A stretch of DNA of 64,000 nucleotides, from contig NZ_CP016279.1 in NCBI RefSeq assembly GCF_001542625.1, positions 10,044,001 through 10,108,000 of the forward strand, given 5' to 3'. This document shows, piece after piece, positions 15,655 through 54,723 of the stretch (positions within the stretch are counted from its first letter, which is position 1; every line of letters begins with the position of its first letter). The notes beneath the pieces were generated by a model, which saw only the letters and a list, made by a program, of their open reading frames with translations, made no database searches and was not told where the DNA came from. The translations under genes were made by a program, and so were the position numbers. The DNA comes from Streptomyces griseochromogenes (GTDB lineage: Bacteria > Actinomycetota > Actinomycetes > Streptomycetales > Streptomycetaceae).

Positions 15655-16950
15655 GTGGCATCCACGGTCACCTCCAAGCCGGCGGAGAACCCGTCGACGT
15701 CGTCCCGCCCGGGATACGGACAGCTGCTGCGCACCCGCGGCGCCTGGACCTTCCTGCTCCCCGGCTTCGCGGCGCGCCAGCCGTTCGCGATGCTCACCCT
15801 GTCGATCGTGCTGCTCGTGCAGCACACCACCGGCTCCTACGGCGCCGCGGGCGCCGTCGCGGCCGCCACCGGCGTGTCCATGGCGCTGTTCGCGCCCTAC
15901 AGCGGCCGGCTCGCCGACCGCCACGGGCAGCGCACCGTCCTGATCCCGGGTGTCCTCGTGCACACGGTGTCGGGCCTGTCCCTGACGGCGCTCGCGCTGG
16001 CACACGCGCCCCTGTGGGCGCTGTTCGCGGCGGCCGTCCCGACCGGCGCCTCGGTGCCGCAGGTCGGCCCCATGGTCCGTGCGCGCTGGGGCGTGAAGCT
16101 CCAGGACACGCCCCTGATGACCACGGCGGCGGCGTTCGAGTCCGTGACGGACGAGCTGACCTTCGTCTTCGGGCCCCTGCTGGCGACCGCGCTGTGCACC
16201 GCCGTGGCCCCGTCCGCGGGTCTGGTGACGGAGGCCGCGCTGACGCTCGTCGGCGGTCTGCTGTTCGCCGCGCAGAAGAGCACGCAGCCGCCGGTGACCG
16301 GCGAGAGCGGGCACGCGCGCGTGCAGCACGCCTCCGCGCTGCGCGTCCCGGGTGTGCGGGTGCTGATCGTGACCTTCCTGGGCATCGGGTCGGTCTTCGG
16401 CGGCATGCAGGTGTCGCTGGCGGCGTTCACCGAGTCGATCGGCGAGCCCGGTCTGAACGGCGTCCTGTACGGCGTCTTCGCCGCGGGCAACATGCTCTCC
16501 GGCATCGTCTGCGGCGCCATCGCCTGGAAGATCGCCCCGCAGCGGCGCCTGATCATCGGCTACACGGGTCTCGCGATGGCCGCCTCCGCGCTGTGGACGG
16601 CGCACTCCGTGCTGCTGCTGGCCGCCCTCGGCCTGCTGGTCGGCATGTGCATCGCACCGGCCCTGATCACCGGCTACACGCTGGTCGAGGGCCTGGTCCC
16701 GGCCGGCGCCCGCACCGAGGCCTTCACCTGGCTGACCGGCGCCGTGGCGCTCGGCCAGGCGGCGGCCGTCACGGTCGCCGGACAGCTGGAGGACCGCCTG
16801 TGGGACGGCGCCGGATTCCTGGTGCCGATGGCCGGCACCGTGCTCGCGCTGGGCACCCTGGCGGCCCTGCGTTCCCGGCTGGTCACCCGGTCGCAGAACC
16901 GCACCGTCGCACGTGGCGTCGGTCACCGCGTGCCGTTGACGGTGGACTGA
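15655..16950 (+). CDS. MFS transporter
   Basis: 431 aa, GTG start with GAAAGG upstream. Twelve hydrophobic segments can be traced, with a short polar loop near 205-225 between halves. The A-motif-like loop after the second helix reads YSGRLADRHGQRTVLIPG, diagnostic for the major facilitator superfamily. Early conserved residues include FLLPGFAARQPFAML. Substrate is not predictable; similar Streptomyces proteins are annotated only as MFS transporters. No regulator is adjacent. Confidence 0.85.
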   Translation: MASTVTSKPAENPSTSSRPGYGQLLRTRGAWTFLLPGFAARQPFAMLTLSIVLLVQHTTGSYGAAGAVAAATGVSMALFAPYSGRLADRHGQRTVLIPGVLVHTVSGLSLTALALAHAPLWALFAAAVPTGASVPQVGPMVRARWGVKLQDTPLMTTAAAFESVTDELTFVFGPLLATALCTAVAPSAGLVTEAALTLVGGLLFAAQKSTQPPVTGESGHARVQHASALRVPGVRVLIVTFLGIGSVFGGMQVSLAAFTESIGEPGLNGVLYGVFAAGNMLSGIVCGAIAWKIAPQRRLIIGYTGLAMAASALWTAHSVLLLAALGLLVGMCIAPALITGYTLVEGLVPAGARTEAFTWLTGAVALGQAAAVTVAGQLEDRLWDGAGFLVPMAGTVLALGTLAALRSRLVTRSQNRTVARGVGHRVPLTVD

Positions 16951-16955
16951 TCCCC

Positions 16956-16982
16956 GGGAATACGTCACTATGGACCGTCGTT
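16956..16982 (+). promoter_or_regulatory. SigR-type promoter of the FmdB-family gene
   Basis: GGGAAT (16956-16961), exactly 18 bp, then GTT (16980-16982). This matches the Streptomyces SigR consensus GGGAAT-N18-GTT at every defined position. It lies 36 bp before the start codon and its -10 element overlaps the first bases of the CIRCE-like operator. Confidence 0.75.
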
Positions 16983-17007
16983 AGCACTCATTGAGTGAGA
17001 GTGCCAG
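16981..17007 (+). promoter_or_regulatory. CIRCE-like HrcA operator
   Basis: TTAGCACTC, 9 bp, GAGTGCCAG. The CIRCE consensus is TTAGCACTC-N9-GAGTGCTAA; the left arm is perfect and the right arm keeps GAGTGC. It would sit over the transcription start of the SigR-type promoter, a position suited to repression by HrcA. Confidence 0.7.
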
Positions 17008-17017
17008 GAGGAAGACA

Positions 17018-17338
17018 GTGCCCACCTACCAGTACCAGTGCACCGAGTGCGGCGAGGGCCTCGAGGCGGTGCAGAAGTTCACCGACGACGCCCTGACCGA
17101 GTGCCCCAACTGCGGTGGCCGCCTGAAGAAGGTGTTCTCCGCGGTCGGCATTGTCTTCAAGGGCTCCGGCTTCTACCGCAACGACTCCCGCGGCTCCACG
17201 TCGAGCAGCAGCCCGGCGTCGAAGTCGTCCACGTCGTCGTCCAGCTCCTCGTCGGCCGACTCGAAGTCGTCCTCGTCGACGTCATCGCCGTCGTCGTCTT
17301 CGTCTTCGTCGAGCTCCAGCAGCAGCTCCGCCGCCTGA
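17018..17338 (+). CDS. FmdB-family zinc-ribbon protein with Ser-rich tail
   Basis: 106 aa, GTG start with AGGAGGAAG ribosome binding site. Residues 1-45 form an FmdB/CxxC zinc ribbon: PTYQYQCTECGEG with the first Cys pair, then TECPNCGGRLKKVFS with the second, and IVFKGSGFYRND after it. The remaining ~55 residues are nearly all Ser with some Lys and Thr, a low-complexity tail. FmdB-type ribbons are of unclear function; redox-sensitive zinc release is a plausible inference given the SigR promoter. Promoter and operator evidence suggests control by both thiol stress and HrcA. A strong hairpin follows. Confidence 0.88.
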   Translation: MPTYQYQCTECGEGLEAVQKFTDDALTECPNCGGRLKKVFSAVGIVFKGSGFYRNDSRGSTSSSSPASKSSTSSSSSSSADSKSSSSTSSPSSSSSSSSSSSSSAA

Positions 17339-17351
17339 GGTCTCGCTTCCG

Positions 17352-17379
17352 GGCCCTGCCGTCGTGCGACGGCAGGGCC
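17352..17379 (+). terminator. Terminator after the FmdB-family gene
   Basis: Perfect 13-bp arms GGCCCTGCCGTCG/CGACGGCAGGGCC with a 2-nt loop, 13 bp after the stop at 17338, followed by TT. Confidence 0.75.
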
Positions 17380-17437: not shown

Positions 17438-18271
17438 ATGGCGAACGCAGAGATCGGCGTAATCGGCGGCTCGGGCTTCTACTCATTCCTCGACGACGTG
17501 ACCGAGATCCAGGTGGACACGCCGTACGGGCAGCCCAGCGACTCCCTCTTCCTCGGCGAGATCGCCGGCCGACGGGTCGCCTTCCTGCCCCGGCACGGCC
17601 GCGGCCACCATCTGCCCCCGCACCGCATCAACTACCGCGCCAACCTGTGGGCCCTGCGCTCGGTCGGCGTCCGGCAGGTCCTCGGTCCGTGCGCGGTGGG
17701 CGGCCTGCGCCCCGAGTACGGCCCGGGCACCCTGCTCGTACCGGACCAGCTGGTGGACCGTACGAAGTCCAGGGCGCAGACCTACTTCGACGGGCTGCCG
17801 CTGCCCGACGGCACGGTGCCCAACGTGGTGCACGTGTCCGTGGCCGACCCGTACTGCCCCGCGGGACGTGCCGCCGCGCTGAAGGCGGCCCGCGGACGGG
17901 ACTGGGAGCCGGTGGACGGCGGCACGCTGGTCGTGGTCGAGGGACCGCGCTTCTCGACCCGCGCCGAATCCCTGTGGCATCAGGCGCAGGGCTGGTCGGT
18001 GGTGGGGATGACCGGACATCCCGAGGCGGCGCTCGCCCGTGAACTCGAACTGTGCTACACGTCCCTGACCCTGGTCACCGACCTGGACGCAGGCGCCGAG
18101 ACCGGCGAGGGCGTCTCGCACGACGAGGTGCTGCAGGTGTTCGCGGCCAATGTGGACCGGCTGCGGGGTGTGCTGTTCGACGCGGTGGCGGCGCTGCCGG
18201 AGCCCGGGGCGCGGGACTGCCTGTGCGTGAACGCGCTCGGCGGGATGGATCCGGGCTTCGTGCTGCCGTGA
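17438..18271 (+). CDS. mtnP: S-methyl-5'-thioadenosine phosphorylase-like (MtnP/PNP)
   Basis: 277 aa; ATG at 17438, no clear ribosome binding site. It belongs to the trimeric purine nucleoside phosphorylase family: IGVIGGSGFYSF (phosphate loop), FLPRHGRGHHLPPHRINYRAN, GPCAVGGLRPEYGPGTLLVPDQLVDRTK, VEGPRFSTRAES and MTGHPEAALARELELCYTSL. In classical MTAP the base-specificity segment reads T-D-Y-D; here it is TDLDAG, so 6-oxopurine or broader specificity is possible. The enzyme would split methylthioadenosine (or a purine nucleoside) with phosphate in methionine salvage. Confidence 0.85.
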   Translation: MANAEIGVIGGSGFYSFLDDVTEIQVDTPYGQPSDSLFLGEIAGRRVAFLPRHGRGHHLPPHRINYRANLWALRSVGVRQVLGPCAVGGLRPEYGPGTLLVPDQLVDRTKSRAQTYFDGLPLPDGTVPNVVHVSVADPYCPAGRAAALKAARGRDWEPVDGGTLVVVEGPRFSTRAESLWHQAQGWSVVGMTGHPEAALARELELCYTSLTLVTDLDAGAETGEGVSHDEVLQVFAANVDRLRGVLFDAVAALPEPGARDCLCVNALGGMDPGFVLP

Positions 18272-33069: not shown

Positions 33070-34068
<999 letters not shown>

Positions 34069-34172: not shown

Positions 34173-34199
34173 AACGACTGGAATCAGGACAGAATTCCC
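34173..34199 (-). promoter_or_regulatory. SigR-dependent promoter of hrdD
   Basis: On the minus strand: GGGAAT (34199-34194), 18 bp, GTT (34175-34173). It matches the SigR consensus fully and lies about 105 bp before the hrdD start codon. Confidence 0.8.
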
Positions 34200-54255: not shown

Positions 54256-54687
54256 CTACGAAGTCGGCACCCTCGGCTGGCCGAGGTCCGTGGATGAGCG
54301 CCCCTCCGGCAGCCCCATGCGCGTCTGCTCGGGAATTGCCGCGCGGTGCGTCGCGGCGATCGTTCGGCGCAGCAGGTCGCGGGCCGTGGCCAGGTCGGTC
54401 GCACGGCGGTCCAGGGTGTCCAACTGGGCGCGCAGATGGTCCAGGACGCCGGGGCAAGGGCGCAGGGTGGTGCCGTCGACGGAGCAGGGAAGGACTTGGC
54501 GGATGACTCGCGTGGGCAGGCCTGCGGCGAGCAGCGCGCGTATGTGCCGAACGGTCTCGACCGCCTCCTCGGCGTAGTCGCGGTAGCCGTTGGCGCGCCG
54601 CTGGGACCGGATCAGCTCGGCGCGCTCGTAGTACCGCAGAAGGCGTTCGCTGACTCCGGTGCGTCGTGACAGCTCCCCGATCAGCAC
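54256..54687 (-). CDS. MerR-family regulator
   Basis: 143 aa; GTG with GAAGGAG 7 nt upstream. MerR HTH: IGELSRRTGVSERLLRYYERAELIRSQRRANGYRDYAEEAVETVRHIRALLAAGLP. The effector part has one coiled coil (LDHLRAQLDTLDRRATDLATARDLLRRTIAA). There are Cys at PCSVDGTTLRPCPG that could bind metal. It diverges from the amidohydrolase gene across 98 bp containing a dyad. Confidence 0.9.
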   Translation of the reverse strand: MLIGELSRRTGVSERLLRYYERAELIRSQRRANGYRDYAEEAVETVRHIRALLAAGLPTRVIRQVLPCSVDGTTLRPCPGVLDHLRAQLDTLDRRATDLATARDLLRRTIAATHRAAIPEQTRMGLPEGRSSTDLGQPRVPTS

Positions 54688-54702
54688 GGCCTCTCCTTCG
54701 GC

Positions 54703-54723
54703 TTGACCTTCCAACGGTGTCAG
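54703..54723 (+). promoter_or_regulatory. MerR-type operator/promoter candidate
   Basis: TTGAC, 11 bp, GTCAG: an almost perfect inverted repeat whose left arm is also a -35 like TTGACC, as in MerR-activated promoters. It lies between the merR and amidohydrolase genes. Confidence 0.45.

Follow-up and report, generated by a model that had tools for sequence, protein, structure and literature searches.

A SigR-type promoter interlocked with a CIRCE operator upstream of a likely ruc orthologue in Streptomyces

The window analysed here, a 64-kb stretch of Streptomyces griseochromogenes DNA, contains a short region where a first-pass annotation had brought a thiol-stress sigma factor and a heat-shock repressor together on one zinc-ribbon gene. 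This raises the questions of which gene is being controlled, whether the joining of the two elements exceeds chance, and what kind of control it would give.

The control region and its gene

Re-reading of 16956–17020 confirmed the SigR-type promoter, the CIRCE-like site and their overlap. The promoter motif GGGAAT-N18-GTT spans 16956–16982, with 18 nt between its two boxes, and interlocks with CIRCE through two bases common to both (Table 1). CIRCE itself ends 10 bp before the GTG codon of the FmdB-type zinc-ribbon gene. Its description as an HrcA site stands at 16 of 18 consensus positions, but the right arm departs at two bases from the textbook arm, which we take to be GAGTGCTAA. Directly 3' of the gene, at 17352–17379, lies a perfect inverted repeat with 13-nt arms and no T run, a possible terminator.

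Table 1. Features of the ruc-type locus, in coordinates of the window
Feature	Position	Strand	Basis or remark
MFS transporter gene, 5' of the ruc-type gene	15655–16950	+	PF07690; TGGACT box in last codons
TGGACT, −35-like box of the vegetative-type module	16943–16948	+	Overlaps last codons and stop of the MFS gene
SigR −35, GGGAAT (core GGAAT, 16957–16961)	16956–16961	+	Core columns 97–100%, preceding six 49–72%
CACTAT, −10-like box of the vegetative-type module	16966–16971	+	17 nt from TGGACT
SigR −10, GTT	16980–16982	+	Motif reading and conservation; TT doubles as CIRCE bases 1–2
CIRCE operator (HrcA, predicted), TTAGCACTC-N9-GAGTGCCAG	16981–17007	+	16/18 consensus positions
CIRCE left arm, TTAGCACTC	16981–16989	+	Direct reading
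CIRCE right arm, GAGTGCCAG	16999–17007	+	Direct reading
Shine-Dalgarno, AGGAGG	17006–17011	+	Two bases common with right CIRCE arm
ruc-type gene, FmdB zinc ribbon, 106 aa	17018–17338	+	GTG start 17018, stop 17336–17338; profile matches, alignment
S-methyl-5'-thioadenosine phosphorylase-type gene, downstream	17438–18271	+	NF005876, 454 bits (cut-off 306)

The gene product matched TIGR02605 (CxxC_CxxC_SSSS) at 75.3 bits against a cut-off of 31.3, and PF09723 at 58.1 bits against 34.4. Four cysteines, in two CxxC pairs, are common to all 10 aligned orthologue proteins (locus L272 left out), and the low-complexity C-terminal tail is 74% Ser and 93% S/T/A/G/P. Profile matches and alignment agree with the annotated zinc ribbon of four cysteines and its tail rich in Ser. 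At E ≤0.001, a homologue was present in 147 of 150 genus genomes and in 285 of 296 genomes of the class sample. Elsewhere the window carries moeA, galU, 5-FTHF cyclo-ligase and mscL genes; the 5-FTHF cyclo-ligase gene adjoins ruc at locus L212 of genus g4, which is taken as Mycobacterium. The M. tuberculosis neighbourhood used in the comparison has what we take to be the gene order Rv0985c–Rv0994. The zinc-ribbon match and the common neighbourhood together make the gene a likely orthologue of M. tuberculosis Rv0991c, an identity that the first-pass annotation had missed.

Rv0991c is named Ruc, and is presented in passages of its description as a chaperone (holdase) activated by oxidation (PMC7448276); by analogy the Streptomyces product would likely be a redox-activated chaperone. 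The same passages report that SigH, the SigR orthologue, induces M. tuberculosis ruc, that HrcA directly represses it, and that the two sites overlap, with immunoblots for HrcA repression and heat induction (PMC7448276). A second source tabulates SigH-dependent transcription and gives Rv0991c a value of 40.3 ± 12.2 (PMC4803200). The M. tuberculosis locus thus resembles ours both in its orthologous zinc-ribbon gene and in its overlapping SigH/SigR-type promoter and HrcA operator. The combined element, of which the annotation had known no description, is a known kind of control region. A description of the SigR–CIRCE pair in Streptomyces was not found among the papers listed from an open-access library, and the gene may already stand in published SigR target lists.

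The predicted regulators are encoded in the genome: sigR (TIGR02947, 361 bits, cut-off 251.55), rsrA (TIGR03988, 104.3 bits, cut-off 62.5) and hrcA (TIGR00331, 349 bits, cut-off 197.2), the last with its own CIRCE. A genome search for CIRCE at up to 3 mismatches gave 12 hits, amounting to 6 palindromic sites at four loci, each within 2 mismatches (backwards control, 7 matches). These loci are groES-groEL1 and groEL2, with two CIRCE copies each, hrcA and ruc, the same set as the HrcA operons listed for M. tuberculosis in the relevant part of PMC8557902 (groEL2, groES-groEL1, rv0991c-rv0990c and hrcA-dnaJ2). When 3 kb at each of groES-groEL1, groEL2 and hrcA was scanned, the gene strand carried no SigR motif; the operators there otherwise share the CIRCE of the ruc-type gene. 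With ruc the only one of four CIRCE loci to have the motif on the gene strand, we rejected the idea that SigR–CIRCE overlap is a general trait of HrcA targets.

Conversely, sigR is preceded by GGGAAT-N18-GTT, spaced as at the ruc-type gene. The window has the same motif at 34198–34172 on the minus strand, 104 nt before a principal-type sigma gene (33073–34068) that is presumably HrdD-like. In Streptomyces, hrdD and sigR both belong to the genes that SigR controls, and the site in the window serves as an internal positive control for promoters of this type. Unlike the ruc-type gene, neither sigR nor the HrdD-like gene has one of the CIRCE sites from the genome search at its promoter. A third GGGAAT-N18-GTT (54755–54729, minus strand) lies just before an ORF that appears MerR-like by eye (54256–54714), opposite an amidohydrolase ORF starting at 54666.

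Conservation and spread of the SigR–CIRCE pair

Motif frequency and conservation give different answers to the question of chance. CIRCE has a single match in the window, with 0.00 expected. GGGAAT-N17..19-GTT has three where 0.35 would be expected, which makes the promoter motif by itself weak evidence. The joined pattern GGAAT-N18-GTTAGCACTC is found without mismatch once in the 10.76-Mb genome, at the ruc-type gene; the other 45 hits all have 3 mismatches, and the backwards control gave 24 matches at up to 3.

Conservation was followed in genus g1, the window's own, taken as Streptomyces. The set of 93 loci (90 distinct sequences) is a non-random sample with respect to the 147 matches in the genus, combining 53 from among the best-scoring matches of the genus and class searches with 40 from the weaker end of the genus search. 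Poor conservation among orthologues was a result that the annotation itself had named as counting against its reading; instead the joined pattern was exact in 89 of the 93 Streptomyces upstreams examined, and the two elements were kept in 107 of 113 Streptomycetaceae. Over the 90 distinct sequences the GGAAT columns are 97–100% conserved, following six columns at 49–72%, and the CIRCE arms are 100% conserved. The annotation had called GGGAAT an exact SigR consensus, and its GGAAT part held up. Its first G did not: the full hexamer is present in only 30 of the 93 upstreams, and we therefore take GGAAT as the conserved −35 core. The base before CIRCE is G in 92 of 93 Streptomyces and in 12 of 78 non-Streptomyces, where A is commonest (42). 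Four loci are exceptions: L022, L034 and L160 have a missing or changed −35, and L159 retains GTT with CIRCE displaced by one base. In a set of 17 Streptomyces loci all had the SigR motif with GTT in the same place, one of them with a 19-nt spacer. As judged from these alignments, it is conservation and not motif frequency that lifts the pair above chance.

For a wider survey, 317 loci, those of the class sample drawn from among the matches listed (G709 and G432 left out), gave 301 distinct upstreams. Counts were made on the 291 with a CIRCE of at least 14/18; the 10 dropped were four from family f26, three from f4, two from f5 and one from f33. A SigR motif was scored as GGAA[TC]-N17..19-GTT with GTT between 30 bases before and 2 after the CIRCE start. 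By this measure it was present in the 107 of 113 Streptomycetaceae (f1), in 34 of 59 upstreams (16 of 28 genera) of f4, by inference Mycobacteriaceae, in 18 of 60 (17 of 56 genera) of f17, perhaps Pseudonocardiaceae, and in 5 of 59 (3 of 39 genera) of other families. Shuffled upstreams averaged 0.18–0.40 per group, with a largest count of 3 and a mean of 0.40 for Streptomycetaceae, and three scrambled SigR motifs gave 0 in all four groups. No SigR motif was found near CIRCE in 25 of 59 f4, 42 of 60 f17 and 54 of 59 other upstreams; most f17 and other-family upstreams thus lack it there, and the pair is no universal rule. In 16 of 60 f17 upstreams (e.g. L265, L305 and L318) GGAA[TC]-N17..19-GTT lies 31–150 nt upstream of CIRCE, with promoter and operator apart.

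Six of the 113 Streptomycetaceae upstreams lack the SigR layer and keep CIRCE (L022, L034, L160, L324, L325 and L328). In the Streptomycetaceae genus g120, 24 of the 34 genomes with a ruc-type site among the matches listed have GAAAT for GGAAT. At L325, as in these g120 genomes, GAAAT takes the place of the SigR −35 core, and both CIRCE and the CA--AT box described below are retained. A figure of 291/297 (16 of 17 genera) is an upper bound, because up to 3 mismatches were allowed and its listing, which does not cover every match, includes some groE-type CIRCE sites; its backwards control gave 1.

The register of the two elements also differs among groups. Promoter and operator have two bases in common in Streptomycetaceae and 13 f4 genera. 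In genus g4, our stand-in for M. tuberculosis, GTT instead directly abuts CIRCE (15 of 15 genomes), a register that scored 0 of 150 in a negative-control search centred on Streptomyces genome G115. Where f17 has the motif, GTT lies 7, 11, 19, 21 or 25 bases before CIRCE.

A vegetative-type module and the proposed control

Also overlooked at first was a second pair of boxes, TGGACT-N17-CACTAT, with the SigR −35 sitting within its spacer. The textbook vegetative consensus is matched weakly, at 4/6 positions of TGGACT and 3/6 of CACTAT. The pair is probably a second, vegetative-type promoter woven around the SigR −35. It could alternatively have arisen as a side effect of common descent and of constraint on the coding sequence, with SigR and HrcA acting alone, a reading that we find unlikely while giving it real weight. 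In its favour, besides the weak consensus match, TGGACT lies within the last MFS codons, and its columns, 93–100% conserved in the 90 distinct Streptomyces upstreams, adjoin coding columns that themselves reach 91–93%. The CA--AT hexamer lies after the MFS stop codon, however, and there C, A, A and T are 98–99% conserved around a variable middle (78–80%). In general form, T[GT]GAC-N17..19-[CT]ANNNT was present in all but one of the 113 Streptomycetaceae upstreams (112; mean after shuffling, 0.18), and 103 had a CACTAT-type hexamer at offset −15 from CIRCE with spacing 17.

Outside Streptomycetaceae the module's distribution speaks for both readings. It was present in 0 of 59 f4 and 0 of 60 f17 upstreams, which sets f4 apart from the Streptomyces ruc region and would suit a coding by-product. 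It nonetheless recurs in 23 of the 59 upstreams outside f1, f4 and f17, among them 12 of 12 in f19, members of f9, f12, f13, f28, f31, f37 and f38, and L208. At L107 and L208 no reading frame on the strand of the box stays open beyond 31 codons ahead of T[GT]GAC, arguing against coding constraint there; long open frames are common in this GC-rich DNA, and in the other families the box may be coding or non-coding. The M. tuberculosis parallel is similarly divided: the passages on ruc attribute its control to SigH and HrcA only, yet a figure legend gives a second ruc start 19 nt upstream of the first (PMC7448276).

On this evidence we consider it fairly likely that the region is the control region of Streptomyces ruc, with SigR and vegetative-type promoters interleaved and HrcA occluding both. 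Typical promoter-to-start distances would put the start of the vegetative-type promoter at about 16977–16979 and that of GGAAT-N18-GTT at about 16988–16990. HrcA on 16981–17007 would then sit over the SigR −10 and lie on or next to each of the predicted starts, so that the gene would be silent while proteins are well folded. Once chaperonins were titrated by misfolded protein, HrcA would leave and the vegetative promoter would give a heat-type induction. Thiol oxidation would free SigR from RsrA and bring strong added transcription, full only with HrcA off. The resulting gate would take the form 'SigR or vegetative, unless HrcA', in which folding stress (relief from HrcA) and thiol stress (release of SigR) would each raise transcription and together would give the maximum. 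The M. tuberculosis data suggest as much, in that heat still raises Ruc further in an hrcA mutant (PMC7448276).

That the SigR motif is a chance match, leaving the gene under HrcA only, we regard as highly improbable. The three copies in the window, the 54 of 59 other-family upstreams with no copy near CIRCE, and its absence at L022, L034 and L160 would fit such a reading. The idea was nevertheless rejected on the column conservation that sets in after variable flanks, on the shuffles (107 of 113 Streptomycetaceae against a mean of 0.40) and on the scrambled motifs; the M. tuberculosis orthologue is moreover SigH-dependent in the parts of the two sources that bear on it (PMC7448276, PMC4803200). 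Finally, the Shine-Dalgarno overlaps the right CIRCE arm and transcription from the SigR promoter would begin where the left arm ends, so promoter choice might toggle an RNA hairpin in which the vegetative transcript, with the whole CIRCE repeat, hides the Shine-Dalgarno and the SigR transcript does not, but we give this almost no credence and rejected it, predicted Shine-Dalgarno accessibility being independent of start position, equal for starts before and inside CIRCE (medians 0.23–0.29, six offsets, 93 sequences).

The operator edge and its meaning

Interleaved promoters under one repressor, as proposed for Streptomyces ruc, can be compared among families by where the −10-like hexamer [CT]ANNNT stands relative to CIRCE. 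In Streptomycetaceae it starts at −15 in 110 of 113 upstreams and at −5 in 5. In f17 (n = 60) there are 34 counts at −5 and 25 at −6, and in the other families −5 is found in 53 of 59; in reading these counts, CIRCE itself supplies the final T of a hexamer at −5, and relatives are not independent. In f17 and the other families, then, the hexamer mostly has its last base on the first T of CIRCE or immediately before it. In Streptomycetaceae the hexamer lies ten bases further upstream, and the SigR GTT holds the operator edge. In f4 a hexamer at −5 is seen in 6 of 59 upstreams only, whether SigR is present or absent.

One way to read this is that the opening bases of CIRCE form an unchanging docking edge where one sigma factor has been exchanged for another in evolution, the repressor being constant and the sigma variable. 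The SigR/SigH GTT would then have taken over the T pair in Streptomycetaceae and 13 f4 genera, and the vegetative −10 of Streptomycetaceae would stand one helical turn further upstream, interlocking both promoters with a single operator. We hold this reading only tentatively and find it somewhat doubtful. Within Streptomycetaceae, support for SigR displacing an edge hexamer is mixed. L324 (genus g118), which lacks SigR, carries just the −5 hexamer and in this resembles the other families, and L328 (g128), also without SigR, has hexamers at both −5 and −15. L032, L051 and L205 have a SigR motif together with a hexamer at −5. The exchange reading is weakened by the other four of the six SigR-less upstreams (L022, L034, L160 and L325), which keep the −15 hexamer only, and by the rarity of the edge hexamer in f4.

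The first-pass interpretation is thus supported in part. What is new beyond it and beyond the M. tuberculosis precedent is how widely the pair is conserved, the vegetative-type module interleaved with it, and a possible exchange of sigma factors at a fixed operator edge. For Streptomyces, the region would make a probably redox-activated chaperone responsive to thiol stress as well as to the state of protein folding, as passages on M. tuberculosis report for Ruc (PMC7448276). The wiring would be no mycobacterial peculiarity, and is either old or repeatedly regained. With one operator facing different sigma elements at matched positions, these loci may offer a comparative system for the evolution of sigma specificity at a repressed promoter.
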